Positions 1,796 to 37,610 of a stretch of DNA of 41,649 nucleotides are shown here, in pieces. Within the stretch, counting starts at the first letter, position 1; each line of letters begins with the position of its first letter. Origin of the DNA: Anaerolineaceae bacterium. GTDB taxonomy: Bacteria > Chloroflexota > Anaerolineae > Anaerolineales > Villigracilaceae. The stretch spans positions 1 to 41,649 of the forward strand of contig VFJR01000068.1 in NCBI GenBank assembly GCA_009885945.1. The letters are read 5' to 3'. The notes beneath the pieces are model-generated. The model was not told where the DNA came from and did not search any database. It was given only the letters and a program-made list of their open reading frames with translations. The translations under genes and the position numbers were made by a program.

Positions 1796-3007
1796 ATGCA
1801 AATTAAACATAAGCCAATAGATATACAAGATCTGCCCGCCGGTAATAACTTGGTGCGGCAAAAAAATATAATTGCAAAATTTATTAAAGACTGTCTGGCA
1901 CACCAGTTGTTTCCGGGCAGTCTTTTTCCTATACCGCCCAATGACATTAATTGGAATCTGCTGTATCGCGAATTATCCCGCCAGCGTTTGACTGGTTTTT
2001 TTTGCGCCTTGGGTAAATCGCAAAAAGACGTTTGGAATGCTCAGTTTTACGAGCAGTTACGCGCCGACCGTTACAGCCTGCAGTTTTACGGGGACCAGTC
2101 CTCAGCGCAGAGTCGAGGCGTTTTATCAGCGTTGGAAAAGGCAAATGTTAAATGTATCGTGCTAAAGGGTTGGGCTTATATCCAAACTGTATATGGGGGC
2201 GATCATAGCCTGAGAGTTTGTGAAGATATTGACATTCTGGTGCAGCCTGAAGATGTTGATCGCGTTGAGGCGATCTTGGAAATGGAAGGCTGTGAAAAGG
2301 ATGCTGAAAGCTGGCAGGGTTATGCGCGCCAATACATGAATGCAGAGCGATATTTTTTTACTGCCCAGCCCAATGGTGTGCAAAGTAAATTTTCTATTGG
2401 CTTGCATTGGGGCTTATTGCATATTCCGGCATATGACAAGAATCGGATTGATGTAAATTCGCTTTTTCAACGCGCTCAACCTTTGCAGTTGTTTGGTGGT
2501 AACGCGCTTCAATTATCTGTGGAAGAGCACATTGTTTATGCGTGTGCCCATCAAGTTCTGCATCATCGTTTCGACAGCGCCTTGTTTCGATATTATGAAT
2601 TGAGCGCAACTCTTTTGAAAGAAAAAGTGAATTGGGAACTGGTTTCGAAACTGGCTGTGCAATGGCAATGTCTTATCCCTTTGCAGGTGACTCTGCGGCA
2701 AGTGAATATGTTGTGGGGCGAGGTTGTTCCATTACAAGTGCTGAACGAGCTTGAACTAGTACGTCCCAATTTAATGGAAGTATTTATTGCGAGATGGATC
2801 AAATTATTTCGAGGCAAAGACACATTTGATCATCTGCTGACTTGGTTTACATTCCCAGATTGGAAACAAAGAGTCGTTATCGTTTTTAAAGATGTTTTTC
2901 CCAGCCCTGCTTATATGCAAAAAAGATATGGCAAAGCCCCGCTAGGCTTTGTTCCTTTTCTTTACCTTGTCAGATTTGTACATGCAATCACTTCTTTTTT
3001 TAACTGA
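1796..3007 (+). CDS. Nucleotidyltransferase family protein (PF14907-type)
   Basis: 403 aa, no signal peptide. The signature is VKCIVLKGWAYIQTVYGG followed by R-x-CEDIDILV (residues ~120-150). This LKG...R...D-x-D pattern belongs to the uncharacterised NTP_transf_5 family, whose paired Asp residues resemble the metal site of pol-beta-type nucleotidyltransferases. The C-terminal half is helical and has no motif I recognise. Such proteins occur in EPS loci and also in lasso-peptide clusters that contain an HPr-kinase-like gene; both contexts exist here, with the tyrosine kinase 17 nt upstream and the lasso-type genes ~9.7 kb downstream. The acceptor (sugar, peptide or protein) cannot be told from sequence. 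The ATG at 1796 has only a weak Shine-Dalgarno, and the short spacing suggests cotranscription with the kinase gene. Confidence 0.8.
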   Translation: MQIKHKPIDIQDLPAGNNLVRQKNIIAKFIKDCLAHQLFPGSLFPIPPNDINWNLLYRELSRQRLTGFFCALGKSQKDVWNAQFYEQLRADRYSLQFYGDQSSAQSRGVLSALEKANVKCIVLKGWAYIQTVYGGDHSLRVCEDIDILVQPEDVDRVEAILEMEGCEKDAESWQGYARQYMNAERYFFTAQPNGVQSKFSIGLHWGLLHIPAYDKNRIDVNSLFQRAQPLQLFGGNALQLSVEEHIVYACAHQVLHHRFDSALFRYYELSATLLKEKVNWELVSKLAVQWQCLIPLQVTLRQVNMLWGEVVPLQVLNELELVRPNLMEVFIARWIKLFRGKDTFDHLLTWFTFPDWKQRVVIVFKDVFPSPAYMQKRYGKAPLGFVPFLYLVRFVHAITSFFN

Positions 3008-3319: not shown

Positions 3320-3336
3320 GCTTTATGGAGAACGTT

Positions 3337-6300
3337 ATGCAAAAGAAAATTAATTATTATTTTAACCTAAGCACTTTATTTATTTTTATATTTTCACAAG
3401 TTGTCGTACCTTCAGCGGTTGCGGCTTCTGCGGTTGATGCTTCAACAACACAGCCGATCACCCTTGCGGATATGGAGCTCGCTTCAGTTGCCGCGCCCGG
3501 ACCTGACCCTGCCCCCAACGGCTACTCAGTAGCTGACCCGGGCAGTTACCAACCGTCAAAATTTTCATCGCTGCAAGAGATTGCAAGTATGCTGGGGAAT
3601 AATAATTATGTCGCGCCCCTTATCCCTACCTCGCGCACAACTGCGAATTTAAAAATCTATCCAATCACAGCCTATAACTTGATCGTAGATTCGAATGTGC
3701 TTGCACCTTCCTCTTACGGTCCTTCTGCGGCGACGATTGGCGCCAAGTTCTGTAACGAATCAAACGCGGCAATGACCGATGTATGGATGTATGCCGGTGA
3801 TTTTAACTCAGACAATGATGAGGTTCCTGATGAAGCGAACGATAAAACTCCGGGCTTGTATCCTCAGCGCACAAGCATCACCGAAAACCCCGGTTTGAAT
3901 GGTCCTACCCAAGTAGATAGCGGTGACACCACCCGCATGTATGCCTTGAAACAGGAGTCTGGTACTTTAAATTCTGTTGTAGACGCCTCCCGCCGTTATG
4001 TCGGTGATCTTGCTGTAGGTCAATGTCTCACTCAATATTGGCTTATTTCCTACCCTCGCAAAGCCTATGTAGGCGGCACTTGGGTCAGCGTAACCGGCGG
4101 CATCAAACCAGAAGATGACCTCTGGCTTCCTTATTATTTTTGGGCAACCTCTAACGTAACTGGTTCTACTCCATCTTATGTTTGGCGCCCGCTGACCATG
4201 CGCAATGAAATCTCTGCGATGGCGAATAAGATTTGGCCCAATGGCGACAATAAAGTGCCAGATGAATATGTGAGCGCGATTCAACAAGTATTGGGCTGGG
4301 ATACTTGGACACCTAACGATCCCTCTGGGGCGACTGCTTACCCCGGTGAAACTGTAACCAGCCAAGGCATTTGGTATGACTTAGGCAATGTAGGCGCCGG
4401 CTTCGATAATAATGGCGATCTTGTGCCGGACCGCAATATTTGGGTCCAGCCCATTGGTGATGCATCAGCTTACGACCCGGGCTGTTTCCGTTTGGTGCGC
4501 ACGTATGGTCTTGTCATTATTAAATTGAACGATGGCACTGAAATGCTGATTCCCTTTGTGGATGAAATGTATTTTGAAAATATACCCGATAATAATACTG
4601 GGGCAGTAGGTTTGGTGTTTTATGAATACATCGCCTTGGACGGCGCTTGTAGCGCAGGTTTAACCCCTTATCAAGAAGTTGCCTCAGGGTACGACAACGA
4701 GAAATTCAACGGCGACTTTGGCGCGGGTATTCCTCCAATTCAAAGCCGTGCAACGAACATGTTGTTCGATAAGACCGGTGCAGGTTCCATCGCCTTGGGT
4801 GGGACGATCAATTATTCCCTAAAATTTACTTTACCGGATATTGACGGCGGTACTTCAGATACCGTTACTGTGGGTAGTCCATCTGTTGGCGCACCGCTGA
4901 CATTCTTTGATACAGTTCCCTCTGGCTTGCAATTTGATAGTGATTCTTACAGCACTACTGTAGACATGACCAATTACTCGCCAGATCCTCAGCCAGCTAC
5001 AGTATTAGTTTCTAAAGACAGCGGCACAACCTGGTATGACATCAGCCTGACCGCTTCTCGAGATGCGATCTGCGGCGTTGGCGTTTGGCCCTGTTATGTA
5101 CCCAGCACTTCACCGAATAATCTTGTCATGATTCAATGGCGTTTGAATTCAGGTATCACCAGCCCCAACGGTTCTGATGTGATTGGCGAAGTTGTTTTTA
5201 GCGCCTTTGTGCCTAACGCATATACAGGAAATACTATTAGCAATACTGCTTGTATGACCATGGGTACTACATCTGGTTTTATATGCGATGATCTAATCAC
5301 TGTTGTATCAGGCACATCTGCTATTCAAGGGACAGTATGGAAGGATGATAGTGTCACTGGCGGCGTACTTGCGAATGCAATTCAAGACGGCACTGAAGCC
5401 GGTATTGGCTCCGGCACACCCATTACGGTCTGGTTATATTGGGATAATAACGGCGATGGCGATTACACCGACTCAGGTGATTTTTTATATGCTACTACCA
5501 CCAGTGATGCAAGCGGCAATTATTGTTTTGACGGCACACCTCTTGTTTCAACCTGTCTCACTGGATCAGGTGGTTTACTTGCCACCACTGGTTCAGCGCG
5601 CTACATTATTGTTGTAGACACACTCGACCCTCAACTCCCGACCGGCTATGGACCTACTACAGCTACATCTTATAAGAATATAGCACTTGCCGCCAGCACA
5701 CTTTACGGCGACGACGCCAGCGAGCCCTCTGACTTTGGCTTTGGGCCTGCATTAACTTTGGACAAAAACCTAGCAACCACCACTGCCGTAGTCGTTGGGG
5801 ATACGGTCACATACTCTATTTTACTAACCAACCACATGCCCGGAGATGGCAGCGGGGGTTCTGCATGTGTTTACAAATCATGGTCGCCGTTGGAAGGCAA
5901 TCAATCAACAGGAGTGCCGCCCAATAAACGATTTGCTAATACTTTGACCCAATCTCCTCCTAACCCGACCAACGCCTTTAACTCTGTTGGGTTTGATAGT
6001 GTGTATGCAATTTCAGATTTTTCTACCGGCGCCAATCAAGTCTTAGGCGCTACGAATTACACTTTCGGTCCTCAGAGCGGCACGATTACCAAGGTCAATT
6101 TGCGTGCTCGCTATTATGTGTCAACCGCGCTGGTGGATGATTTTGCACACATCGGTTATTACACTGGCGGAACACTCCATGCTACGAAAACATACACGAC
6201 CGCTGAAGTTAATGCACATATAGGGTTTGCCAATAGTGGTTATTTAGATTGGGACTTTGGCGCCACCAACCCGGCTACCGCCGCTAACTGGCAATGGAGT

Positions 6301-9300
6301 GAGCTTGCTTCCGGCAACACCATCCAAATGTTGTTTGGAAATGATAAGGCCGCCAGCGCAGACATAAGTTTAATGCACTTGGACGGTTTAGTCTTGGAAG
6401 TTACTACTACAGGCACCTGCGGCGGCATTTCTACCACTCTTAATCCTGTCCCACTAACCGATACATTCAACAGCTCCTACTTTACTTTTATTTCGTCTGA
6501 CCCGCCAGTTTCATCTACAGGCGCTGGCTCACTCACTTGGAATAATGTCGGTCCCATTTACCCCGGGCAAACCCGTGTTGTCACAGTGAATATGCGCGCC
6601 ATTCAAAATGGTACTACTACAAATACCGATAACACCGCCACCAGCACAAGCTCAAAATTTGCCAGCGGATTGCCCGCCAACTCGCCGGTGACAGATACGG
6701 CAACCGTTGTGATCGGTACAAATGCTGCAACTCGTTCACTTTCCGGGCATGTTTTTGATGACAATATCACTACAGGCTGGCTCACTGCGGCATGGTCTGA
6801 ACCCGGCACGGCTCAAGCCGGTTACGATGGAAGTGATTCCGCGATCCCATATATTCCAGTTGATCTTTATGCTTGTGTGATCGCTGGTGTGCCTGTCACA
6901 GCCATTAGCGATAATAAAGCCTGTAATGACGCCAGCGTTGGCGGAACTTGGCAATACTTACAATCCACCTCTACCAACACCAGCGGTGATTACACCTTCT
7001 CAAACTTGCGCCAAGGATATTATTATGTTGTCGTTCATTCTGAATATATAGTCGGTTCACAAACGGCAGATGTCAACCAGAATGGCGTTTGTACAGTATG
7101 CGATAGCAAATCTGGATTAACTACAGATAACGTTAATAATTCTCCTTTCCCTGGTGATCTAAGCAACAACACTACCATCACTAACGTAAACTTTGGTTAT
7201 AACGTCTCAAATAGCACATACAATATAGGTGATACGCTCTTCTATGATTGGAATGGCGATGGTATTCAAGATGGCACAGACGAGCCAATGTCTGGCATTA
7301 CGATTGAGCTTCTCGGTCCTGATGGGACCGTAATTGCAACCACTACCACAAATTCTAGCGGTGTGTATGGTTTTAGCGCACGCCCTGTTGGGTATTACAC
7401 AGTTCGGGTTGCAACAAGTTCACTTCCATCCGGCGTAACCCAAAGCCTCGATCCAGATGCCACCAAGGATAATCAAAGTTCATTCAACCTTACAGCCAAT
7501 GATCTAACCCGAGATTTTGCCTATCAGCCTGTTGGCAGCGGGACTATTGGCGATACAGTTTTTGTTGATCTAAATGGTAATGGATTAAAAGGTTCTGCCG
7601 AAGAGGGCCTCTCTGGCGTTACTGTCAAATTACAGGTAGATTTGAATGGCGATGGAACTTATGTAACTATTGCAACACAGACCACCTCATCTACCGGCGC
7701 TTATTTGTTTGAAGGCCTGCCTGTAGGCGCAAGCTATAACTATCGTGTTGTTGTGGAATTAAGCGCCGCCAACCTTGCTATTATTCCAAACGATGTCATT
7801 GGCAACGATTACCTCAACTCGACCGGCACAAAAGACGTTACCCCAACTCCGGATATTATTTATATCAATGCCAGCATTACAACTGCTTCACCAAATTACC
7901 TCACCGCCGATTTTGGCTTCGCGCCTCCCGCCTCTTTTGGCGATACAGTGTATCAAGACATTAACGGCAATGGCACCCAAGACCTTAACGAGCCAGGCAT
8001 TAGCGGTGTTACTGTCAACCTTTATTACTTTACAGACCTTGGCGATGGAAATTTTGCTTATGATGTTGGCGAGCCTTTCTACGACCTGAATAGCAGTGGT
8101 ACGCGTCAAGTGGGCGAATCTTTCTTTGATAAAGACGGTCGTTATCAACCCGGCGACACCGTTGGCGCATTCTACGCAACTGCTACTACAGACGCAAACG
8201 GAAAATATCAATTTGCTGGATTGTTGCCCGGCTACTACGTCGCTCAGGTCACCCCGCCAGCTGGTTCTACCTTAACCGGCGATCCTAACACTGACGGTAT
8301 TTCCTGCTCAACCCTGACATTAAGCACTGAACCCCCCAGCACAATCTGCGATCATCGTGACGGCATGCGCTTATACAACGGCACCAATTACCTAGGCGCA
8401 GATTTCGGCTACCAACTGCCCGGCGCCTTCGGTGACACCGTTTGGATTGACACCAATGGCAATAACAAAGTAGATATTGGTGAATCTGGCATTGATCAAA
8501 TTACGGTCACTGCTACAACGACTGTTCCAGCCAATACCACCGTGACAGTTAATGGTACGACCTACACTGCAGGACAGCCTATTTCTCTTTCTGCTATCAC
8601 AGATGCAAATGGAAATTATTTCTTCTCCGGTATAACCATCGGCGGAGCAATTCCTGCAAACGTAACCTGGATTGTTACCGTGAATACAGCCGACCCAGAC
8701 TTCCCCGTTGGCTTGACGAACGTTAGCGACCCCGATCAATTAACTGCGTGTAATATTCCCGGCAACCCAACTTGTACGGGCTACAACAGCGCCACTAATG
8801 TAGTGATGAATCCGTCAGGTGCGATCACGCAAGTTGGTGCATTGACCACCAACAGCGCAGATGGCGATGCATCTGATGTGCTTAAGTTGGACGCCGACTT
8901 CGGTTATCGTTTTGTGGGTATTACAGATATTAGCGGCACGATCTGCGGAGAAACTACTACAGTCAACGGCTTCTGCGGTTCGAGCAATATTGCTCCTACT
9001 GGAATTGGGGCTGGTGAAATTGTGTACGATAATGTGACTGTATATCTCTACAGACTCGACGAAACCGGCGGAACCCCAGGCAATGGCATATTAGATGCCG
9101 GCGAGACAACCATATTGGTTGGTACTACAATTACAAATGCCAATGGCGATTATGCTTTTTATGATGTTGCGGATGGTACCTATTATGTTATTGCGATTGG
9201 TGCACCGCAGGATGGTTTAGATCTCACTTCTACAGCCGCGACAGTTAATGCTGGCGCTGATAATGACGCCAATCAAACTGGGCAATATCAGGAAACCGTG

Positions 9301-12300
9301 GCAGGAGATGGTGATACCCTTTCTGCCTATCAGGTTGTTCACGTTGCCGCCAACGACACATCTGTAACCGATCGCGACTTCGCTTTTCAAAACAGATTAA
9401 CGTATGACTATGGCGATTTGCCGGTTGCATATTCTATGACCAGACTAGATGACAATCCAGATGGGGCGCGTCACACCATCTCGGGATTGTATTTGGGTGC
9501 GGTGGCTCCTGATGCCGATGGAAATGGTTACCCCAGCGCAACTGCTTCTAATGACGACAATGTTGGCGATGATGAAGAGGGTGTGACCTTTACAGGTACT
9601 TGGACAAATGGCGACAATGGTGGCAGTTTAAGCGTTGTGGTCACTGGTTCGGGTTATTTGGTGGGTTGGATTGACATTAACGGCGATGGTGACTTTAATG
9701 ATGGGTTTGACGATGGCGATGGTAATTTCTCTGAGACGGGCGAATGGCGCGAATATATTATTAGCCAAGCTGTCACAACGGGAACTTACCCATTCACTGT
9801 TGATATCCCGGCTGGCACACTTTCTGCCACGCCAAAAATATTTAATACGCGTTTCCGCTTGTTTACGACCATGCCTTTATTGCCTGCACTCTCCTACACA
9901 GGCGCGGCAACCGGTGGTGAAGTAGAAGATTATCAAATTTCAGTTGTTCTGAATGGCACCCCAATCATTCCGCCGCATACGACCCCGGTTACACTGTCTT
10001 ACTTCCAGGCTCAACGGCGCGGAAGCAAAGTGGAATTTAACTGGTCTACCGCCACTGAGACATCCAATCTCGGTTTCAATTTGTATGTTGAAAATAATGG
10101 TCAACTAATTCAAATCAACCAAAATATGATCCCCTCGCAGGTGGTTGATTCCTTGAATCGTCATGATTATTCACTCAGCGTAAATATGGGCGGTGATACC
10201 TTCTACATTGAAGATGTTAGCGTCTTAAACGAAACGACCCGCCACGGACCCTTCAGACTCGGCGCGAAATATGGCGATCGCATAAAGGAAAATAAGATTG
10301 ATTTAGCGGCAATTGAAGCTGAACATAATCAATTGCAGGCTCAAAATCAAAATAAAATTTTGAAGGACCTGAAAAGACTCCCATCAAGTATTTTGCAATT
10401 ACCTTTCTTAAAACCGACTCAGGAAATGCAGTTAGTAAATACTCTTAATCTAAAAGTTCGTAAAACAGGTATCTATCGTGTGACCTATGAAGAGCTTAAG
10501 AGCGCTGGTCTTGATCTAGCTGGCGTGTCTGTTAAAAAGCTCACTCTGACCAATCGCGGCAAAGTTGTCCCTATCTATGTGGATGCGCTAAATAATAAAA
10601 GCGCAGGCGGAAGCTTCGGAGCAGGTAAATTTATCGAATTCTATGCTGAGGCTCTCGATACCATTTACACCGATACAAACATCTATACTTTGCAGGTTGG
10701 TAAATCTCAAGCAAATCGTATTTCAGAAGATAATGGCGCGCCTAGCCGAAACATAATACCTTCAGCCTCTTATACAGAAACTATACTGGTCAATAAACAG
10801 ATCGTTTACTCCAATATAGCCCCTGGAACGGATGTTTGGTTTGATACAGCAATGTTAACTGCTAAGACAGCTAAGAGTTGGACATTTAATTTTCAAGTTA
10901 ATGGTTTGGCAGATGCTAGTGCGCCAGCCTCTCTTGACTTAGTTGTCTGGGGCGTCACAAACTTTAGCCAGAACCCGGACCATCATTTGCTGGTCAGCAT
11001 TAATGGCGTTTCTTTGGCAAACCAAACCTTCGAAGGATTGGTGGAACATAAGATCAAGGTTTCGTTGCCAGCCGGCACATTGCATGAGGGCTCGAATACA
11101 CTTCAATTAACCTTGCCGGGCGATACTGGGGCGAGATCAGACCTTGTCAATCTCGATAAATTTAGCATCAGTTATCAGCGTTTCTTCGCCGCGACTGATG
11201 GAAAGATCGCATTTACAGCAACAGGTAAGGTCTTTACTGTTACTAATTTGCCGGGCAAAGACGTTGTTGTTTATCGTATTGATAACAAAGGCATCGTGCG
11301 CCTGCAAAAAACGAATGTTGTTAAGGGAAGCGGGAATACATACACTGCTACTTTTGGCGGTACAAACGCAGAAGCAAAGTATCTCGTTTCTACCGTTGAG
11401 GTTTTGTCTGCTCCAACTCTTGAGCCGACCCGCTTACAGGTGAACCTGAACAACCCCGCCCAATATTTGATAATTTCCCACCCCGATTTTATTGACGGAC
11501 TTCAACCGTTGATACAGGCTCGTAGAGCGCAAGGTTTGACTGTTAGCGTTGTGGACGTCACTAACATCTACACCCAATATAGTTATGGCATCTTTGACCC
11601 GCTAGCCATTCAGAAATACATTGCATATGCTAAGAAGAGTCTGGGCGCAAAATACGTTTTATTGGTCGGTGGTGATACTTATGACTATCGTAACTATCTC
11701 GGCATAAACAGCATAAGCTTTATTCCTTCGTTATATGTAACTACTGGCAGAGTAGCCAAGTTTGTGCCTGTTGATCCATTATATGCGGATGTAGATAACG
11801 ATAATGTGCCAGACCTTGCCATTGGGCGCTTCCCAGTACGCACCCGCGCCGAATTGGATTTGATGGTGAATAAAACGCTGGCATATACTAATAAAAATTA
11901 TGGAAAAACGGCAGTGTTCACTTCTGATAAATATGATGGCGTTGTTTCCTTCAAGGAAATTAACGCAAGCCTGTCAGCCGACTTACCCGCTGGCTGGTCT
12001 TCTGAGAACATCAATCTGGACGATCTTAGCGTGTCAGCAGCGCAAAGCCAACTGTTTGCTGCAATGAACAGAGGCACTGCTCTGGTTACCTTCACCGGTC
12101 ACTCAGGTCCGACATCCTGGACCTTTAGTAACTTATTCAATACTCAGGTTGCGGCAACGTTAACCAATGCTGGACGTCCCTTTGTGCTAGTGCAATGGGG
12201 CTGTTGGAACACATATTATGTTGACCCGCTCAATAATAACCTTGTGCAGAGCTTCCTCTTCTCTGGGGATAAAGGCGCTGCGGCAGTCTTTGGCGCGGTG

Positions 12301-12492
12301 ACCTTGACTGATTCCTCGTCAGAGGCGGCGCTGGGCGTCTTGCTCACTCCGCGTATGATCCAGCCGGGTATGCCAATGGGCATGGCTTTACAAGATGCCA
12401 AGCGTGAGCTAGCCAAGACCCACCCGGAGCTTCTGGATGTTTTGCTCGGCTGGACTCTTATGGGCGATCCTGCTTTGGTGGTTCAACCTTAA
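3337..12492 (+). CDS. Giant secreted multidomain surface protein with SdrD-B-like repeats, GEVED domain and C25 (gingipain-like) protease
   Basis: About 3050 aa. An ATG at 3325 is in frame, but GGAG at 3327-3330 lies 6 nt before the ATG at 3337, so 3337 is preferred. Residue numbers below count from 3325. A signal peptide (basic N-end, hydrophobic core LFIFIFSQVVV, cleavage near AVAA) is followed by a DUF11-like domain (~480-630). SdrD-B/Cna-B-like domains start near 665, 1137, 1300, 1406, 1537, 1701 and 1867, several with Ca-binding-like DxNGDGxxD. A second DUF11-like fold (~810-1130) carries an insertion. A GEVED domain (~2030-2205) and an Fn3-like module (~2220-2310) follow. The C-terminal ~340 residues match peptidase family C25: GAKYVLLVGGDTYDY, DPLYADVDND, AIGRFPVRT, catalytic-type His2926 in TGHSG and Cys2960 in QWGCWN. 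It ends without an LPXTG or other sorting motif. Likely a secreted adhesin-protease; its substrate is unknown. Confidence 0.88.
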   Translation: MQKKINYYFNLSTLFIFIFSQVVVPSAVAASAVDASTTQPITLADMELASVAAPGPDPAPNGYSVADPGSYQPSKFSSLQEIASMLGNNNYVAPLIPTSRTTANLKIYPITAYNLIVDSNVLAPSSYGPSAATIGAKFCNESNAAMTDVWMYAGDFNSDNDEVPDEANDKTPGLYPQRTSITENPGLNGPTQVDSGDTTRMYALKQESGTLNSVVDASRRYVGDLAVGQCLTQYWLISYPRKAYVGGTWVSVTGGIKPEDDLWLPYYFWATSNVTGSTPSYVWRPLTMRNEISAMANKIWPNGDNKVPDEYVSAIQQVLGWDTWTPNDPSGATAYPGETVTSQGIWYDLGNVGAGFDNNGDLVPDRNIWVQPIGDASAYDPGCFRLVRTYGLVIIKLNDGTEMLIPFVDEMYFENIPDNNTGAVGLVFYEYIALDGACSAGLTPYQEVASGYDNEKFNGDFGAGIPPIQSRATNMLFDKTGAGSIALGGTINYSLKFTLPDIDGGTSDTVTVGSPSVGAPLTFFDTVPSGLQFDSDSYSTTVDMTNYSPDPQPATVLVSKDSGTTWYDISLTASRDAICGVGVWPCYVPSTSPNNLVMIQWRLNSGITSPNGSDVIGEVVFSAFVPNAYTGNTISNTACMTMGTTSGFICDDLITVVSGTSAIQGTVWKDDSVTGGVLANAIQDGTEAGIGSGTPITVWLYWDNNGDGDYTDSGDFLYATTTSDASGNYCFDGTPLVSTCLTGSGGLLATTGSARYIIVVDTLDPQLPTGYGPTTATSYKNIALAASTLYGDDASEPSDFGFGPALTLDKNLATTTAVVVGDTVTYSILLTNHMPGDGSGGSACVYKSWSPLEGNQSTGVPPNKRFANTLTQSPPNPTNAFNSVGFDSVYAISDFSTGANQVLGATNYTFGPQSGTITKVNLRARYYVSTALVDDFAHIGYYTGGTLHATKTYTTAEVNAHIGFANSGYLDWDFGATNPATAANWQWSELASGNTIQMLFGNDKAASADISLMHLDGLVLEVTTTGTCGGISTTLNPVPLTDTFNSSYFTFISSDPPVSSTGAGSLTWNNVGPIYPGQTRVVTVNMRAIQNGTTTNTDNTATSTSSKFASGLPANSPVTDTATVVIGTNAATRSLSGHVFDDNITTGWLTAAWSEPGTAQAGYDGSDSAIPYIPVDLYACVIAGVPVTAISDNKACNDASVGGTWQYLQSTSTNTSGDYTFSNLRQGYYYVVVHSEYIVGSQTADVNQNGVCTVCDSKSGLTTDNVNNSPFPGDLSNNTTITNVNFGYNVSNSTYNIGDTLFYDWNGDGIQDGTDEPMSGITIELLGPDGTVIATTTTNSSGVYGFSARPVGYYTVRVATSSLPSGVTQSLDPDATKDNQSSFNLTANDLTRDFAYQPVGSGTIGDTVFVDLNGNGLKGSAEEGLSGVTVKLQVDLNGDGTYVTIATQTTSSTGAYLFEGLPVGASYNYRVVVELSAANLAIIPNDVIGNDYLNSTGTKDVTPTPDIIYINASITTASPNYLTADFGFAPPASFGDTVYQDINGNGTQDLNEPGISGVTVNLYYFTDLGDGNFAYDVGEPFYDLNSSGTRQVGESFFDKDGRYQPGDTVGAFYATATTDANGKYQFAGLLPGYYVAQVTPPAGSTLTGDPNTDGISCSTLTLSTEPPSTICDHRDGMRLYNGTNYLGADFGYQLPGAFGDTVWIDTNGNNKVDIGESGIDQITVTATTTVPANTTVTVNGTTYTAGQPISLSAITDANGNYFFSGITIGGAIPANVTWIVTVNTADPDFPVGLTNVSDPDQLTACNIPGNPTCTGYNSATNVVMNPSGAITQVGALTTNSADGDASDVLKLDADFGYRFVGITDISGTICGETTTVNGFCGSSNIAPTGIGAGEIVYDNVTVYLYRLDETGGTPGNGILDAGETTILVGTTITNANGDYAFYDVADGTYYVIAIGAPQDGLDLTSTAATVNAGADNDANQTGQYQETVAGDGDTLSAYQVVHVAANDTSVTDRDFAFQNRLTYDYGDLPVAYSMTRLDDNPDGARHTISGLYLGAVAPDADGNGYPSATASNDDNVGDDEEGVTFTGTWTNGDNGGSLSVVVTGSGYLVGWIDINGDGDFNDGFDDGDGNFSETGEWREYIISQAVTTGTYPFTVDIPAGTLSATPKIFNTRFRLFTTMPLLPALSYTGAATGGEVEDYQISVVLNGTPIIPPHTTPVTLSYFQAQRRGSKVEFNWSTATETSNLGFNLYVENNGQLIQINQNMIPSQVVDSLNRHDYSLSVNMGGDTFYIEDVSVLNETTRHGPFRLGAKYGDRIKENKIDLAAIEAEHNQLQAQNQNKILKDLKRLPSSILQLPFLKPTQEMQLVNTLNLKVRKTGIYRVTYEELKSAGLDLAGVSVKKLTLTNRGKVVPIYVDALNNKSAGGSFGAGKFIEFYAEALDTIYTDTNIYTLQVGKSQANRISEDNGAPSRNIIPSASYTETILVNKQIVYSNIAPGTDVWFDTAMLTAKTAKSWTFNFQVNGLADASAPASLDLVVWGVTNFSQNPDHHLLVSINGVSLANQTFEGLVEHKIKVSLPAGTLHEGSNTLQLTLPGDTGARSDLVNLDKFSISYQRFFAATDGKIAFTATGKVFTVTNLPGKDVVVYRIDNKGIVRLQKTNVVKGSGNTYTATFGGTNAEAKYLVSTVEVLSAPTLEPTRLQVNLNNPAQYLIISHPDFIDGLQPLIQARRAQGLTVSVVDVTNIYTQYSYGIFDPLAIQKYIAYAKKSLGAKYVLLVGGDTYDYRNYLGINSISFIPSLYVTTGRVAKFVPVDPLYADVDNDNVPDLAIGRFPVRTRAELDLMVNKTLAYTNKNYGKTAVFTSDKYDGVVSFKEINASLSADLPAGWSSENINLDDLSVSAAQSQLFAAMNRGTALVTFTGHSGPTSWTFSNLFNTQVAATLTNAGRPFVLVQWGCWNTYYVDPLNNNLVQSFLFSGDKGAAAVFGAVTLTDSSSEAALGVLLTPRMIQPGMPMGMALQDAKRELAKTHPELLDVLLGWTLMGDPALVVQP

Positions 12493-12728: not shown

Positions 12729-14540
12729 ATGAGCGCATTTGCCGTTGTGTATGAAAGATTAAATTCATCAGCCGACCCTATAATGCTGGAGCGAGTTCTC
12801 GGGCGTTTACAGCATCGTGATGTGGATGGCCGCGACGTGTTTGTTCTCGGCAATGTAGCAATGGGACATATACACTTTTGGACTACCCCCGAAGAGGTGG
12901 GTGAGCGCCAGCCGCTGGCGATAAAAGATGAGCCGTTCCGTATTGTTTTTGACGGACGAATTGATAATCGCGATGAGTTATTTTTAAAATTAAATCTTCA
13001 GCCTGATGAAGGCAACCTGCTGTCAGATGCTCAACTTATGCTGCATGCGTATGCCCGCTGGAATGAAAATTGTTTTAAATTCTTTGTGGGTGAATTTTCA
13101 TTGGTGATTTTCGATGAAATAAACAACCAGCTTGTTTGCGCGCGCGACCATTTAGGTGACCGAACTTTATTTTATACAACTCAAGATACACAAGTTGTTA
13201 TTGCTTCAGAACCCTGGGCTGTGGCGGGTGTAAATAATTCAAAACCTGATCTCAACGAAAAAGCAATTGCGCACTATTTTGCATTGCAAGCAACAGAAGA
13301 CGGGCAAACTTTCTTTAATAATGTTTACGAACTACTACCCGCGCATGTGATGACGATTGATGTGTTGAGCCAGCGTATGATACGTTACTGGAAGCCAGAT
13401 ATGCATAAAAAAATCCGTTATAAAACGGATGAAGAGTATGCAGAGCATTTTCGCAAATTGTTGGAAGAAAGCGTTCGTTGCCGTATGCGCTCCAATGCGC
13501 CGGTGGGTGTCTTGATGAGCGGTGGACTAGATTCAACTTCAGTTGCTTGTTTAGCTGCACGCATGAAAACTCCACAGCAATTAACAACAATTTCATTTGT
13601 ATTCGATGAATTAGCAGACTGTGACGAGAGAGAATATATCAATGCTGTAAAAGAACAGTGGCAAACCCATTCCATTCAAATTCCTTGTGATGATGCCTGG
13701 ACGTACAAGGGTTGGGAAAGCTGGAAGCGCAATCCCAACCAACCCGAAGGTAACCCCTATCGGCTGGTTAAAGAACGCGTTTATCAAAGAGCGTCCCATG
13801 AAGGACTTCGAGTATTGTTAACCGGCGGGTTTGGTGACCATTTGTATGATGGATTGGAAAATTGGTTGCTGGATTTGATTTTGGATAATCGTATCAAGCA
13901 GGCAGTTCAAGGTGTTCTTTATAACATCCGCAATTTTGGTGTACGCCAAGCCCTGAAAGCCCCGTCTGCGCGGCGATTGGCAAGATTTATTCTTGATAAA
14001 ATACCTGTTGGCAGGTATTTGCACGCTAAGCACACTTCACGTGTATGGCTGACATCTTTTTCACTGGAAAATATTAACCCAAAACCCGTCGATCGCGCTT
14101 TTGAAGATAAGCACAATTTGCTTGGTTTACCAGCTGCAAAAAGCAGTACTGGTGAAATTTATAATGCAAACCGATATAAGCTGGAACTGCGCCACCCTTA
14201 TCGTGACCGCCGTTTGATTGAATTTATCTTGGCTGTGCCCGCATATCAACTATATTTTTGCGGCGTTTATAAATACATCCTGCGCAGCGCAATGCAAGGC
14301 ATTCTGCCGGAGATTATCCGTATTCGGCGTCAAAAGACTTCATTGGTGTCCTTGCTTTCTCGTGGAATTGAACGCGAAAAAAATAGTTTACAGGAGCTCC
14401 TTCAAGCTCCGAATGCACGTTGGCGTAAATTTGTAGAAGCATCATGGCTTTTACCGCGTTGGAATGTACAAATTACGCCAGATACAGATGGTCCTCAAGC
14501 TCTTATTCCGTGGTTATGCCTTTCTTTTGAAGCTTGGTAA
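12729..14540 (+). CDS. Asparagine-synthase-like lasso cyclase (ATP-dependent macrolactam synthetase, McjC/LarC type)
   Basis: 603 aa. The N-terminal half (~1-220) has the class II glutamine amidotransferase fold pattern (IVFDGRIDNRDELF, CARDHLGDRTLFY). Residue 2 is Ser, not the catalytic Cys of true asparagine synthetase, so it should not release ammonia from glutamine. The C-terminal synthetase domain has the PPi loop SGGLDS (264-269) and an ATP-site stretch LLTGGFGDHLYDG. Known chemistry of lasso cyclases: adenylation of an Asp/Glu side chain in the core and closure onto the N-terminal amine. Assignment as a cyclase rather than an EPS-locus asparagine synthase homologue depends on the precursor gene 30 nt downstream. 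An AGGAAAA Shine-Dalgarno precedes the ATG. Confidence 0.85.
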   Translation: MSAFAVVYERLNSSADPIMLERVLGRLQHRDVDGRDVFVLGNVAMGHIHFWTTPEEVGERQPLAIKDEPFRIVFDGRIDNRDELFLKLNLQPDEGNLLSDAQLMLHAYARWNENCFKFFVGEFSLVIFDEINNQLVCARDHLGDRTLFYTTQDTQVVIASEPWAVAGVNNSKPDLNEKAIAHYFALQATEDGQTFFNNVYELLPAHVMTIDVLSQRMIRYWKPDMHKKIRYKTDEEYAEHFRKLLEESVRCRMRSNAPVGVLMSGGLDSTSVACLAARMKTPQQLTTISFVFDELADCDEREYINAVKEQWQTHSIQIPCDDAWTYKGWESWKRNPNQPEGNPYRLVKERVYQRASHEGLRVLLTGGFGDHLYDGLENWLLDLILDNRIKQAVQGVLYNIRNFGVRQALKAPSARRLARFILDKIPVGRYLHAKHTSRVWLTSFSLENINPKPVDRAFEDKHNLLGLPAAKSSTGEIYNANRYKLELRHPYRDRRLIEFILAVPAYQLYFCGVYKYILRSAMQGILPEIIRIRRQKTSLVSLLSRGIEREKNSLQELLQAPNARWRKFVEASWLLPRWNVQITPDTDGPQALIPWLCLSFEAW

Positions 14541-14569
14541 ATTTTATTATTTATTTTATGGAGACTTTT

Positions 14570-14779
14570 ATGCTTTTTCATTCTCAAATATCGAACACCC
14601 TTCAGCCGCCGAATGTGGATGAAGTTGACCAGAAGCGCCTTAAGCTGTACAGTAAACCATGTTTGGAAGAGTTGGGTGATTTGCGCGCATTAACCTTGGG
14701 AGGCTCCCCAGGTAGCGGTGATAGTGGCGCTGATTTTTGTGAAATTCCGGGCAGTGGCGGCGTTGGTAACTGTTTATAA
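14570..14779 (+). CDS. Lasso-peptide precursor (69 aa: 43-residue leader, 26-residue core)
   Basis: The frame is open from an upstream ATG at 14534. GGAG at 14560-14563 lies 6 nt before the ATG at 14570, so this start is preferred. The leader holds YSKPCLEELGDLRALT, an exact fit to the lasso leader rule Y-x2-P-x-L-x3-G-x5-T that is read by the PqqD-like B1 protein. With the conserved Thr at -2, the predicted core begins GGSPGSGD: Gly1 would be the ring amine and Asp8 the acceptor, giving an 8-residue macrolactam. The tail is Gly/Ser-rich with Cys14 and Cys25, which could form a disulfide, and ends Asn-Cys-Leu. It sits between the cyclase and kinase-like genes. No larger family member is missing; the length is normal for a lasso precursor. 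Confidence 0.87.
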   Translation: MLFHSQISNTLQPPNVDEVDQKRLKLYSKPCLEELGDLRALTLGGSPGSGDSGADFCEIPGSGGVGNCL

Positions 14780-14784
14780 TTTTT

Positions 14785-15672
14785 ATGCCTTATTACCGTA
14801 TCGCCTTGCAGGATATTCATTTTGCCTATCCTATTGTGGAGTTGGATTTTTGTGAAATAAAAAAAAACAGGGTCTTAGCGGCTGTCCAGTCTCCCCCTAA
14901 ATTATTGTTTGAGAGCGTATTGATTTCCCACTCTTTGGGATGGGTTGGTAATGCAAACCGTCAAGTGGAGATTTGGTCAGCGCCAGCGGGATTCCTCTTC
15001 AAGGTCGAAGGTGGAAGCGGGTTTTATATGTCGGAAGATGGGCAAGAAATTTCCCTGATCAATCATCAAAAAGAGCAGGTGGGGCAGTTTGCTCTACCTG
15101 CTCTTTTAATGGATTTGGATCGTGAAATTTTGCTTGGTCCCGTCATTGTTTTTACTTTAGCGTTACGCAATACGTGGAGTTTCCACACTAGCGCCGCCAT
15201 GTTCAAAGATAAAATAATTTTATTTATGGGCGAATCGGGTATGGGGAAATCAACGTTGGCAAGATATATTTCCACTCAAAAAAATTGGCGATTGGTTGCC
15301 GATGATATTTTGCCAGTTATCGCGGATGATATTAGTGTAATGGCGTTACCGCGTTTTCCCCAACTAAAATTACCAATCAACGCACAACCGGGTGTTTCTT
15401 TGCCTGAGCAATTACCAATACACGCTATTTGCATCTTGCAAACTGTAGATAAAAATGCTGCTCCTCATTTAAACTTTATTCAGCCTAGTTTGGCAGTCAG
15501 AGACATCCTTGCTCATACTGCGGGTACTCGTATGTTCACGCCTGAATTGCTGGCGGCGCATTTGAATGTTTGCGCGAAAATAGTAAAGCTCCTGCCTGTT
15601 TATCATTTGTCCTACCCCCATAGAAAAGAAATCCTTCCAGAAGTTAAGGATGTTTTGGAAAATATATGCTGA
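14785..15672 (+). CDS. HPr-kinase/phosphorylase-like protein of the lasso cluster
   Basis: 295 aa. Walker A is GESGMGKST (residues 149-157), followed by WRLVADDILPVI, the acidic ADD motif typical of the HPrK C-terminal fold. The N-terminal ~140 residues are an unassigned beta-rich region. Related proteins are regular members of lasso clusters, where some phosphorylate the precursor's C-terminal residue, and also of EPS/exosortase loci. This core ends in Leu with no C-terminal Ser, so the phosphorylation target is unclear (internal Ser residues exist). It begins 5 nt after the precursor stop and overlaps the next gene by 7 nt, so it is cotranscribed with both. Confidence 0.82.
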   Translation: MPYYRIALQDIHFAYPIVELDFCEIKKNRVLAAVQSPPKLLFESVLISHSLGWVGNANRQVEIWSAPAGFLFKVEGGSGFYMSEDGQEISLINHQKEQVGQFALPALLMDLDREILLGPVIVFTLALRNTWSFHTSAAMFKDKIILFMGESGMGKSTLARYISTQKNWRLVADDILPVIADDISVMALPRFPQLKLPINAQPGVSLPEQLPIHAICILQTVDKNAAPHLNFIQPSLAVRDILAHTAGTRMFTPELLAAHLNVCAKIVKLLPVYHLSYPHRKEILPEVKDVLENIC

Positions 15673-15947
15673 CACTGGCTTCCAAAATTAATATCCCCGA
15701 CTATATTCATGTAACCACTGTGGACAAAGACACTGTTTTGCTAAATACCCGCACAAACAAATATTTTGCATTAAAAGATGTGGGCGCGCGAATATGGAGT
15801 TTGCTTAAAGAATATAAGCATTTAACTGAAATCCATGCGGTTTTATTACGCGAATATGATGTTGAAGAAAAGCAAATGGAAATAGATTTACTCGAATTGA
15901 TCGAGCAGTTTTGGAAGGGCGGGTTAGTAGAAGTGATTCACGAGTAG
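15666..15947 (+). CDS. PqqD-family RiPP recognition element (lasso B1 protein)
   Basis: 93 aa. The pattern DTVLLNTRTNKYFALKDVGARIWSLL followed by a helical C-terminus is the PqqD/RRE winged-helix fold. In lasso systems the stand-alone B1 protein binds the leader's YxxP...L motif and hands the precursor to the B2 protease and the cyclase. The start overlaps the kinase-like gene. No transglutaminase-like B2 domain is fused to it, and none is encoded before the convergent regulator genes, so the leader peptidase must come from elsewhere or the pathway differs. Confidence 0.85.
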   Translation: MLTLASKINIPDYIHVTTVDKDTVLLNTRTNKYFALKDVGARIWSLLKEYKHLTEIHAVLLREYDVEEKQMEIDLLELIEQFWKGGLVEVIHE

Positions 15948-15962
15948 TGTAACAAGAGGTTT

Positions 15963-16108
15963 TTCATAACCATTCAGCCATAAGCTACATACATAATCAT
16001 GTCCCTGCGAGGCGCTCTTGTTTTTTGCCGAAGCAGTCTGCAAATGACTGGAGATTGCTTCGGCGGAAGAGCAAAACCCGCCTCGCAAAGACATGGCTGG
16101 GTAGTTAC
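15963..16108. repeat. Long imperfect palindrome (REP/MITE-like) between convergent genes
   Basis: Nested arms pair: CATGTC (15998-16003) with GACATG (16090-16095), TGCGAGGCG with CGCCTCGCA, GCTCTT with AAGAGC, and GCCGAAGCA with TGCTTCGGC. The central loop is ~21 nt. Outside these, TCATAACCATTCAGCCAT on the left corresponds, with several mismatches, to the inverted ATGGCTGGGTAGTTACGA on the right. The form resembles the widespread 'TTGCGAGG...GAAGCAATCT' palindromic repeats. It occupies almost the whole gap between pqqD-like (+) and HD-GYP (-) genes and could also act as a two-way terminator. Confidence 0.7.
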
Positions 16109-16115
16109 GATTTTT

Positions 16116-17492
16116 TCACAAGTTTTTATTGATACCCTGAATCATATCAAGCACTAGCTCGACCAGTTTTGGGTCAAAAAGCTTGCCCGACTCGTTCTTA
16201 ATATAGGTTTGAACTTCAGGGATTGGCATTTTTTTTCTGTAAGGGCGGTCACTGGTTAATGCATCCCATACATCAATAATCGTGAATAATCTTGCTGATA
16301 AAGGGATTTCTTCGCCTTTTAGTCCCCGTGGGTAACCGCCCCCATCCCAATGTTCATGATGGCAATATGGAATATCCAAAGCAGGGCGTAAATATGTGAT
16401 GGGATGTAACATTTCATATGCATAAATTGGGTGGCGGCGCATTTCTACCCATTCTATTTCGGTAAGAGAGGCGGGTTTTTGTAAAATATCATCTTTGATC
16501 GCAATTTTACCCATATCGTGCAATAACGCCCCGCGCCGTATGTGAATAAGCTCGCTTGCGTTAAAACCTAAGTGAGGCGCAATTTTTTCGGTTAATTCAG
16601 TTACTCGTTGTGTATGCCCCTCAGTTTCACGATCCCGTAAATCCAATGCGCGTACCCAGCCTTCAATGGTTCGTTCGTAGGCTTCCCCTAATTCTTTGTG
16701 GGCATTCGTTAGTGCTTCCTCTGCTTTTTTACGTTCTGTAATATCCCGCGAAGCAGACTGAATCTCCAATAATAATTTTGAATTATTTAATATCATCCGC
16801 GCAGATGTTTCAAGCCATATATAAGCACCATTTTTTTTCAACGCGCGATAGACAATGGTATAGGTTTTCGTAGTAGGCACTTTTTTTTCTAGGAATTGTT
16901 GAATAAGATCTTTATCTTGCGGGTGAATAAATTCGAGACTGTTTTTGCCGATCAATTCCTCAGGAGAATACCCGAGGATGTTCAAACAAGCAGGCGAGGC
17001 ATAAAGAAAAGTACCATCGGGTGCATTGCGCGAAATCATATCGCTAGCATTTTCAGCCAATAAACGAAATTGTGCTTGAAAATGAATTCTTTCAGCCCGC
17101 GACTTCCATTGATCGATGGCTCGTTCTGCAAAATGAGGCATGTCCATCATGGATTCTGGTGATTTAACAACATAATCCACAGCGCCCGATTTCAAGGCTT
17201 CCACAGCGATCTTTTCATTACCATAACTGGTCATTAGAATTACAGGCGTGGAAAGTGGGTCCAGAGGATCCAGTGTGTCCGATAATAATTCTAAGCTTTC
17301 CCCGTCTGGGAGACGCCAATCGGCAATAATTAAATTAGGGTTGTCTGACCTAATATATGAGCGTGCTTCTGTTAGTGAGCGCGTACGATGTAATTCAAAC
17401 TCAGACGAATACCCGTCAAATGCTCTCTCAATTAATTCTGCATGAGGGTCTTCGTCTTCGATCAAAAGAATACGGATCATTTCATTTGCCAT
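16116..17492 (-). CDS. Response regulator with REC, PAS and HD-GYP domains (probable c-di-GMP phosphodiesterase)
   Basis: 458 aa. The REC domain (1-125) has acidic residues ED/D near 12-15 and phosphoacceptor Asp58 in IIADWRLPDG. A PAS domain (~140-260) contains SRNAPDGTFLYASPACLNILGY and ends with the PAC-type SRDITERKKAEE. HD-GYP (~275-450) shows the metal-binding HDMGKIA, then RRHP, HHEHWDGGGYPRGLKGEEIP, DVWDALTSDRPYR. All expected HD-GYP residues are present, so catalysis of c-di-GMP hydrolysis to pGpG or GMP is likely. It lies 12 nt downstream of a REC-only gene and is probably translated from the same mRNA. The neighbouring EPS and surface genes are plausible c-di-GMP outputs (inference). 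Confidence 0.92.
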   Translation of the reverse strand: MANEMIRILLIEDEDPHAELIERAFDGYSSEFELHRTRSLTEARSYIRSDNPNLIIADWRLPDGESLELLSDTLDPLDPLSTPVILMTSYGNEKIAVEALKSGAVDYVVKSPESMMDMPHFAERAIDQWKSRAERIHFQAQFRLLAENASDMISRNAPDGTFLYASPACLNILGYSPEELIGKNSLEFIHPQDKDLIQQFLEKKVPTTKTYTIVYRALKKNGAYIWLETSARMILNNSKLLLEIQSASRDITERKKAEEALTNAHKELGEAYERTIEGWVRALDLRDRETEGHTQRVTELTEKIAPHLGFNASELIHIRRGALLHDMGKIAIKDDILQKPASLTEIEWVEMRRHPIYAYEMLHPITYLRPALDIPYCHHEHWDGGGYPRGLKGEEIPLSARLFTIIDVWDALTSDRPYRKKMPIPEVQTYIKNESGKLFDPKLVELVLDMIQGINKNL

Positions 17493-17504
17493 CGAGTTGA
17501 TATT

Positions 17505-17948
17505 TTATTTACCGAGGTGTGTATTCCATCTAAGCCAATAGAAACCCAAGTCATCCATTAATTTTCGAAATTCTTCAAATCCCACTGGCTTAACCAAATA
17601 ACTATTAACATGGTGGTTATAAGCCCGTACAACGTCTTTTTCTGCATCAGATGTCGTTAGTATAATGATCGGAATGCTTTTCAGATCTTCCGTCTCTTTG
17701 ATGATATGTAAAACTTCCAATCCGTCAACCTTGGGTAAACGCAGGTCAAGCAAGATTACATGCGGTCGGGGACTGGTTTCAGGATTTTCAAAACCATCGC
17801 GGCGAATTAAATAATCAAGCGCAGATTGCCCGTCCAGAAAATGAATAATTTTATTGCCGATGGTATGCTCTTCCATGGTTCGGATTACCAATTCTGCATG
17901 ATCTTTATTGTCTTCTACCAACATTACTAATATCGGTTCGCCAATCAT
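17505..17948 (-). CDS. REC-only response regulator (Rcp1-like)
   Basis: 147 aa, a single receiver domain: VEDNKDH near the start, phosphoacceptor Asp68 in HVILLDLRLPKVDG, Thr in ILTTSD, Lys in YLVKPVGFEEF. The extra length before Asp68 is typical of Rcp1-type receivers that partner phytochrome-like or hybrid histidine kinases. It has no output domain, so it likely relays phosphate or controls its neighbour by protein contact. A good Shine-Dalgarno (AGGAG, 5 nt spacing) precedes ATG at 17948. It is first in a two-gene unit with the HD-GYP gene. No cognate kinase is adjacent. Confidence 0.92.
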   Translation of the reverse strand: MIGEPILVMLVEDNKDHAELVIRTMEEHTIGNKIIHFLDGQSALDYLIRRDGFENPETSPRPHVILLDLRLPKVDGLEVLHIIKETEDLKSIPIIILTTSDAEKDVVRAYNHHVNSYLVKPVGFEEFRKLMDDLGFYWLRWNTHLGK

Positions 17949-31740: not shown

Positions 31741-31743
31741 AAA

Positions 31744-37442: not shown

Positions 37443-37445
37443 ACA

Positions 37446-37610
37446 TCAAAATCCCTGATAGACAAAATCTGGCGTAGAGAAATCGCCTTTGCCATACAAA
37501 ACAACCAACCCGGCGATGATCGCCAGGTAATACACGGTGATTAAAAAAATGCGCGCCCACGTGTTAGCGCGCAGTGCTGTGAAAAAATTCGTCAAACGCT
37601 TGGTTAACAT
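37446..37610 (-). CDS. dltX: DltX-like membrane microprotein (54 aa)
   Basis: This short frame overlaps the last 47 nt of dltD in another frame and stops 3 nt before dltA. It encodes MLTKRLTNFFTALRANTW, then a single membrane helix ARIFLITVYYLAIIAGLVVL, then YGKGDFSTPD and the terminal FVYQGF. The F-x-Y-x-x-F ending is the conserved DltX C-terminal motif (compare FIYNEF in Bacillus). Known role: DltX carries D-Ala on this tail tyrosine between DltB and DltD. The length, single helix, terminal motif and position next to dltA all fit. In Firmicutes dltX usually precedes dltA at the operon start; here dltC and dltD come first. The start could be a later codon, but the conserved part is unaffected. 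Confidence 0.85.
   Translation of the reverse strand: MLTKRLTNFFTALRANTWARIFLITVYYLAIIAGLVVLYGKGDFSTPDFVYQGF

Follow-up and report, generated by a model that had tools for sequence, protein, structure and literature searches.

The window, a stretch of 41,649 nucleotides from an Anaerolineaceae bacterium, carries a lasso peptide gene cluster downstream of a gene for a giant secreted protein with a C-terminal Peptidase_C25 domain. Judged from the genomes compared, the pairing of C25 and lasso genes is a conserved arrangement and a tight genomic link, of which no earlier report was found; a search of the open-access literature (PMC) for lasso peptides linked to C25, gingipain or PorU gave none among the matches listed. 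The leader peptidase B2 is missing from the cluster, and the genome holds a single B2 gene, elsewhere. Taken as a whole, the reading that we favour by a little is that of a kinase-bearing lasso system in a conserved arrangement with a C25 protein, with a B2 that acts in trans and with a joint role at the cell surface.

The lasso gene cluster and its precursor

Contiguous genes for a cyclase, a precursor, an HPrK-like kinase and a PqqD-like leader-binding protein lie exactly where the first-pass annotation had placed a lasso-type cluster (Table 1). The cyclase scores above the Asn_synthase and GATase cut-offs of the Pfam-type profiles, has Ser instead of Cys as residue 2 and keeps the SGGLDS motif; with the lasso cyclase model NF033535 it reaches 393 bits, under the cut-off of 525. 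The leader-binding protein B1 (RRE) is above the PqqD cut-off (PF05402). With the general profiles, the kinase is HPrK-like only via sub-threshold matches (21.4 bits vs a cut-off of 33.3). The precursor exceeds the cut-off of the NCBIfam lasso-leader model NF033521 (22.3 vs 19 bits), is preceded by GGAGAC ahead of its ATG, and is the sole one of its genome, in which no second NF033521 match was obtained even at E 10. Lasso genes of the same clade (clade I) are present in 22 genomes of the family, including the source genome, mostly in the same order; therefore, the cluster is beyond chance, and the lasso system of the window is almost certainly a real one of the kinase-bearing kind. The unit starts before the cyclase, since the C25 gene belongs with the lasso genes.

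Table 1. Features in and around the lasso gene cluster (positions in the window)
Feature	Position	Strand	Basis
NTP_transf_5 nucleotidyltransferase, possible accessory	1796..3007	+	PF14907, 118.9 bits
Giant secreted protein, 3055 aa: SdrD_B repeats, GEVED, C-terminal PorU-like module with Peptidase_C25 (residues 2714-3052)	3325..12492	+	Pfam, fold match, synteny
C25 domain with conserved His (GHSG) and Cys (WGCWN)	11464..12480	+	alignments
Lasso cyclase C, asparagine-synthetase type, Ser2 replacing Cys2	12729..14540	+	profile matches
Precursor A, 69 aa, predicted core GGSPGSGDSGADFCEIPGSGGVGNCL	14570..14779	+	leader profile and alignments
HPrK-like kinase K	14785..15672	+	375 bits (model made from the relatives)
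PqqD-like leader-binding protein B1	15666..15947	+	profile matches
B2 slot of relatives; here a palindrome and two minus-strand genes	15948..17948	.	comparison with relatives
Palindrome	15998-16095		within B2 slot
HD/PAS response regulator	16116-17492	-	within B2 slot
Response regulator	17505-17948	-	within B2 slot

The precursor has the leader motif YxxPxL...G...T with the Thr at -2, and the residues K, Y, P, L, T, L, G and S are invariant in the 13 precursors that could be aligned (13 of 22), so that the motif positions, whose loss in homologues would have spoken against a lasso peptide, are kept. Gly1 and Asp8 of the core predict the 8-residue ring that had been proposed earlier, and a ring acid stands at position 8 or 9 in 21 of the 22 cores of the clade, with Gly1 being partly a product of the pattern by which the cores were delimited. 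The core had been called new-looking. It is in fact typical for its clade, in which GGSPGxGDSG is the common form, except for its two cysteines, which are indeed unusual: Cys occurs only in the cores of the window and of genome G144 among the 22. The tails of the cores differ strongly between genomes. The window core ends in Leu, and none of the 22 cores has a C-terminal Ser or Thr, while Ser follows the ring acid in 20 of the 21 cores having one; as a guess, this Ser is the phosphate site.

Two further candidates in the source genome were set aside. The other asparagine synthetases (contigs C127 and C185) sit among glycosyltransferase-like genes, as judged by eye, and were rejected as second lasso cyclases, and the PqqD match on C63, a contig of 4.9 kb without cyclase or leader, has neighbours with Tat-like starts and is not a second lasso cluster.

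Probable local loss of B2

In a profile search of the genome, no B2 (PF13471) was found within the window, and the single match lies on contig C86, which agrees with the first-pass annotation as far as the cluster itself is concerned. B2 is not a standing absence in such clusters, since it directly follows B1 in 17 of the 22 clade genomes (four have none there and one is not assessable), and a B2 that is always missing in the clade is thus ruled out. Clusters of relatives do carry the gene, a finding that the first-pass annotation had named as one that would speak against it; what it indicates is a loss at the window. In three genomes of one genus (G040, G050 and G079), on which the position of the B2 slot rests, B2 is followed by STAS and GAF/SpoIIE-type genes. 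Because these post-B2 genes stand 2.1 kb past B1 in the window, it is very probable from gene order that B2 was lost locally. The slot now holds a palindrome and two response regulator genes. Across the examined contigs of its own genome, the palindrome turned up once in full and once as a partial match of 29 bases, and thus did not prove to be a repeated element; a 12-base pattern gave 1 match vs 0.27 expected. A proper clade I B2 might sit in the missing part of the draft, which is 95.7% complete in 209 contigs and not closed, but the slot is assembled, other genes fill it and the conserved neighbours follow further on, which makes this explanation very unlikely.

Loss of B2, if real, could also mean that the cluster is decaying and makes nothing, and G117 (67% complete), with a broken cyclase, no B1 or B2 in the cluster and no PF13471 match at all, may be seen as an example of such decay. 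However, none of the four genes left in the window cluster has a broken reading frame, all of them are conserved, and the leader and ring are intact, so that decay is quite improbable here.

An orphan B2 on another contig

That B2 acts from elsewhere had been proposed as one of two options, and the orphan gene keeps it a live one. The C86 B2 retains the catalytic Cys83 and His118. Its contig has a GC content of 0.448 against 0.449 for the window, and its tetranucleotide likeness to the window is 0.948, compared with 0.52-0.85 for stretches of nine relatives. Among the 30 B2 genes of the family over the cut-off, 28 share their fetched stretch with another lasso gene, that of G067 lies at the end of a contig, and the C86 gene is the one true orphan. 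It is not the native B2 in a new place, since it groups with those of G143 and G150 in another B2 clade than that of clade I (89/90 support with the bootstrap not settled, in a tree in which the G046 row, cut to 16 residues, is misplaced). Coming from another clade, the C86 B2 need not fit the B1 and leader of the window, which counts against it. From these gene contents, we consider it probable, with some reserve, that the C86 B2 works in trans on the window cluster. Two relatives show a similar situation: in G001 as in G098, a clade I cluster lacks both B1 and B2, and a PF13471 match, just one in each genome, stands elsewhere. In the open-access literature (PMC), no description of a lasso B2 acting from another locus was found among the matches listed. 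The nearest likeness is with unclustered lanthipeptide proteases, in which, as an excerpt of PMC8960859 has it, the maturation protease is encoded away from the cluster; these, however, serve lanthipeptides and not lasso peptides. With a single orphan B2 and a single cluster lacking B2, three small proteins would be enough to put lasso proteolysis in trans to the test.

The other option was a leader cut by another protease, for which C25 or a house-keeping enzyme may be considered. It is consistent with the lack of B2 beside the window cluster and with G035 (96% complete), which has a lasso leader, a cyclase and a kinase-like gene and yet no PF13471 match. Against it, C25 occurs alongside B2 too (e.g. 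in G144) and has a signal-peptide-like N-terminus on its protein, and the window genome does hold one B2; this option is therefore improbable. C25 as the substitute for B2 in particular is ruled out, since loci with B2 also have C25.

The giant C25 protein and its link to the lasso genes

The C25 domain of the 3055-aa protein matches PF01364 with 237.6 bits. The modules of the family are 53-68% identical to that of the window, and the GHS and GCWN catalytic dyad is found in 22 of 22 (17 of 17 when aligned). The structural model aligns with RgpB (4ief) over 314 residues (Z 37.0, rmsd 2.4) and with PorU (6za2) over 544 residues (Z 21.4, rmsd 8.2). Thus, the predicted fold and the dyad appear to be those of PorU and the gingipains. 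Unlike PorU, the protein stays under the NCBIfam equivalog cut-offs (PorU 172.8 vs 420 bits, PorU2 165.2 vs 450), and it differs from both PorU and gingipains in that it ends after C25, without a sorting domain, and has SdrD_B repeats in front.

The position of the cluster beside a secreted C25 protease, mentioned in the first-pass annotation, has turned out to be its best lead, for the protease is a conserved partner. Of the 152 family genomes, 19 have strong C25 matches, and the clade I lasso gene set is present in every one of these. Counted across the 152 genomes, cyclase against C25 gives 17/2/2/131 (Fisher p 2e-18, with genomes treated as independent of kinship). A same-strand lasso gene lies downstream of 21 of the 23 family C25 genes, within 700 bases for 20 of them, and the distance correlation over 18 loci is as high for C25 vs C (0.83) as for C vs K (0.82). 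G122 has C25-A copied as a unit. Exceptions are G071, whose genome lacks C25 and whose clade I cyclase has a different upstream gene; G004, with A-K-B1-B2 and neither C25 nor C; and G046 and G091, in which no lasso gene stands beside the second C25 and the C25, respectively. Weaker family matches (G039:C128, G098:C90, G033:C9 and G138) are of another kind, and the two that were fetched have no lasso genes.

Outside the family, the class was searched with no more than two candidates scored in each genome; among the matches listed, 20 stretches were fetched, 7 close and 13 more distant. Lasso genes lie downstream of C25 in 5 of 5 genomes with the same C25 clade, two related copies in G395 (36-38% identity) lack lasso C and A, and so do all 13 more distant control loci. 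In a quick tree, the lasso-linked C25 sequences form a separate clade that spans several families of the class (branch of 28 rows, 89 SH-aLRT, drawn open), and the link survives changes in gene order. Overall, these genomic patterns make a functional partnership of the lasso product with C25 likely.

Instead, the C25 and lasso genes might share no more than their regulation and their place in an operon that builds the surface (capsule, adhesin), with no direct contact between the products. EPS-type genes flank the window cluster, other lasso clusters in G098 and G120 stand by SdrD_B adhesins without C25, and paeninodins and LPPs of Bacilli lie near capsule loci according to a part of PMC13381572. 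Against this, the link withstands gene-order change and lies in a separate C25 clade across several families, and we regard mere neighbourhood as rather unlikely.

Proposed mechanism

The arrangement is headed by a giant surface protein that has a PorU-like C25 module; C, A, K and B1 come next, joined by B2 elsewhere in the family. B1 would hold the leader, the orphan C86 B2 would cut it in trans, C would close the Gly1-Asp8 ring, and K would phosphorylate the peptide at a site other than a C-terminal Ser. The product may then be exported and act on the cell surface together with the C25 protein. Its most likely part there would be that of a ligand or substrate, with the conserved ring being recognised and the variable tail presented or trimmed; granted a partnership, the chance that it takes this mode is somewhat short of even. 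A lasso peptide that is a dedicated inhibitor or latency factor, silencing its own C25 protease until needed, would suit the tight pairing, the C25-A unit copied in G122 and the conserved dyad. Variable tails facing C25 modules at 53-68% identity are, however, a poor fit for one fixed active-site ligand, and inhibition is unlikely. More speculatively, clade I lasso peptides may be dedicated cargo or ligands of the giant surface proteins with a PorU-like C25 module. The specific pair in this two-part surface system would be the precursor and the C25 protein, and other lasso loci of the genome could provide the cyclase and B2 in trans. The natural role of paeninodins is given as unknown in the part of PMC13381572 consulted, and a conserved partner of known fold such as C25 offers a direct way to ask for the role of kinase-bearing lasso peptides.

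Comparison with known systems

With paeninodin/pseudomycoidin-type clusters, as outlined in an excerpt of PMC8498205, the window shares A, an HPrK-like K, B1 and C (B2 is usually present there), and with pseudomycoidin also a nucleotidyltransferase; nucleotidyltransferases of the NTP_transf_5 sort act with the kinase in pseudomycoidin in that account. The same family is also found near lasso genes in G001, G091, G098 and G143. The window differs in its lack of B2 and in its C25 partner, and no ABC exporter was recognised near the cluster; a motif scan over the lasso loci found no exporter, although the same scan overlooked ABC-type genes read by eye in G242. The paeninodin-type kinase phosphorylates a C-terminal Ser/Thr, whereas no clade I core ends so. 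The LPP RiPPs of Bacilli (SpI peptidase, RRE, HprK-like kinase and NTP transferase) resemble the window in their RRE, kinase and NTP-transferase parts and in lying near surface-polysaccharide genes, as far as a part of PMC13381572 describes them; they have a signal-peptidase-like protease and no cyclase, whereas the window has a cyclase. An arrangement of SpI, RRE, radical SAM, kinase and C25 was observed in G402 and similar loci.

Lasso genes of the window and the predicted core

The four contiguous lasso genes that the first-pass annotation had placed in the window (Table) are indeed present. The precursor (A) carries a lasso leader motif scoring above the curated cut-off, B1 is a PqqD-type protein, the cyclase (C) is related to asparagine synthetase and has Ser as residue 2, and the kinase (K) is HPrK-like, with sub-threshold matches only. 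The window precursor is the sole lasso leader of its genome in a genome search, and the window gene is the sole lasso cyclase found there with the cyclase of another lasso clade as query; two other matches of this query are ordinary-looking asparagine synthetases. On contig C63 of the same genome (L076), at a contig end, lies a second PqqD-like gene; after it come two similar small proteins whose starts are Tat-like and which contain SRRDAIKLLGAAAGAS.

The lasso clade of the window is present in 22 of 152 family genomes. The cyclase identified 19 of these; G004, G050, and G120 were recognised from A-K-B1-B2 only. The predicted core of the window is GGSPGSGDSGADFCEIPGSGGVGNCL. The ring acid is at position 8 or 9 in 21 of the 22 clade cores, Ser directly follows this acid in 20 of 21, and Cys occurs only in the window (14 and 25) and in its nearest relative, G144 (6 and 25). 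The conserved ring and variable tail suggest that the ring may serve a shared machinery and the tail a special function. Since none of the 22 cores ends in Ser or Thr, a C-terminal phosphate such as that of paeninodin is not possible in this clade.

Table. Coordinates of features in the window and in fetched stretches
Feature	Sequence	Position	Strand	Remark
Four lasso genes	window	12729-15947		
Two adjacent FemAB-like genes	window	30748-32925	+	first confirmed, second by eye
MBOAT (DltB-like), AMP-binding ligase (DltA-like), DltD	window	34804-38784	-	Dlt-type genes
Orphan B2	contig C86			153-aa frame between oxidoreductase-like and PlsY-like genes (neighbour names by eye)
PqqD-like gene, two small proteins	L076	3359-4867		
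C25-A pair	L149	1-2395		
C25-A-K-B1-B2	L099	5.5-13 kb		
SdrD_B adhesin	L045	10180-13815		
SdrD_B adhesin	L098	2246-4609		
Cyclase-precursor frame	L186	3805-5916		

Probable loss of B2 and possible action in trans

The leader peptidase B2 (PF13471) lies directly 3' of B1 in 17 of the 22 genomes, including G091, where the placement was pieced together from two contig ends; it is missing there in the window's genome, G001, G098, and G117, and G071 is not judgeable. G040, G050, and G079 share the arrangement B1-B2-F11-F12 (STAS-like and GAF/SpoIIE-like), with an anti-sigma-like gene between F11 and F12 in G040 and G050. In the window, B1 is followed by a palindrome, two minus-strand response-regulator genes, and then the same F11, F14, and F12. 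Since both flanks are retained relative to these B2-bearing genomes, the gene order indicates that B2 was lost in place.

The window's genome has one PF13471 match, on the 14.6 kb contig C86, where the models used found no other lasso genes. This B2 retains the invariant Cys and His, and the contig composition matches its genome, but its closest grouping is with the B2 sequences from a different lasso clade, which speaks against a stand-in role. Among 30 family B2 genes, 28 are accompanied by a further lasso gene within the stretch fetched and one lies at a contig end; the C86 gene is the one true orphan, and it is found in the one genome with a cluster retaining B1 but lacking B2. If loci shared their maturation proteins, this would account for the orphan, as well as for the gene contents of G001 (three lasso clusters versus one PF13471), G098 (two versus one), and G120 (one cluster lacking B2, another lacking C). 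However, G035 (96% complete) counts against sharing, since its locus L152 has a lasso cyclase, leader, and kinase-like gene and the genome gives no PF13471 match. From gene content, we favour a scheme where the lasso would be made by the cyclase together with a B2 that acts in trans, guided by B1.

In G120, one locus (L099) reads C25-A-K-B1-B2 and lacks a cyclase, and its core, GTSTGGGWSLPPNR..., has no acid at positions 7-9; the second (L098) has A, K, C, and B1 and lacks B2. The product of the cyclase-less locus may be linear, or the cyclase may be borrowed.

Linkage to the C25 protein

The giant protein upstream of the cyclase is conserved in relatives by gene-neighbour clustering. In the window, SdrD_B repeats and a GEVED domain come before its C-terminal Peptidase_C25 (C25) module. 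Fibre-type domains also precede C25 in G144, G098, and G122, the three further members whose length was scanned. The last 680 residues of the window protein resemble PorU in sequence, below the cut-off, and in fold (predicted model, mean pLDDT 86.1).

Strong C25 matches occur in 19 of the 152 family genomes, each of them one of the 22 that carry this lasso clade. G056 is a twentieth, where a C25 fragment consisting of the 65 C-terminal residues lies at a contig edge immediately upstream of the cyclase; the exceptions are G004 and G071, which have lasso genes without C25. A same-strand lasso gene lies downstream of 21 of 23 C25 genes, within 700 bases in 20 and at 2.3 kb in G039. The link persists through changed gene order (C25-C-A-K; C-C25-A-K; C25-A-C-C25-K in G001; C25-A alone in G122). 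Over 18 loci, distances of C25 and of the kinase correlate with those of the cyclase at r 0.83 and 0.82, respectively, uncorrected for the species tree. In G122, the second C25-A pair (L149) has no other lasso genes and a precursor nearly identical to that of the full cluster.

C25 in itself is common: at an E-value cut-off of 1e-40, such modules are present in at least 174 of the 396 class genomes. Among the loci fetched, lasso linkage is limited to a close subset of 43% identity or more, in which all five (G516, G511, G242, G185, and G218) carry C25 upstream of a co-directional lasso C or A gene. The C25 of G395 (36-38% identity) has no lasso link, and no lasso C or A was found at the 13 more distant control loci. 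Lasso-linked C25 modules group together in the C25 tree. The lasso cluster itself is of a known kind; its pairing with C25 may be the new part.

At five of the 13 controls (G402, G489, G382, G164, and G248), C25 is instead accompanied by an RRE-like gene and a kinase-like gene, and at four of these also by a radical SAM-like protein; profiles confirmed the G402 set. At L201-L204 (G402, G489, G382, and G164), signal-peptidase-like, PqqD-like, radical SAM, and kinase-like genes lie immediately upstream of a giant C25 protein, and a second RiPP type paired with C25 is possible.

Surface context

Judging from genomic linkage, we favour a surface system: once made, the lasso peptide would encounter the C25 protein extracellularly, either as a ligand or as a substrate. 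With or without contact between C25 and the peptide, a role at the surface is plausible, because lasso clusters of other clades in the family adjoin SdrD_B adhesins without C25 (L045 in G098, L098 in G120) and kinase-bearing RiPPs of Bacilli are sited near capsule loci (PMC13381572). The Dlt-type genes of the window suggest D-alanylation of a surface polymer. In G511 (L186), one open frame holds both cyclase and precursor, with a ribosome-binding-like GGAG before the precursor's own ATG.
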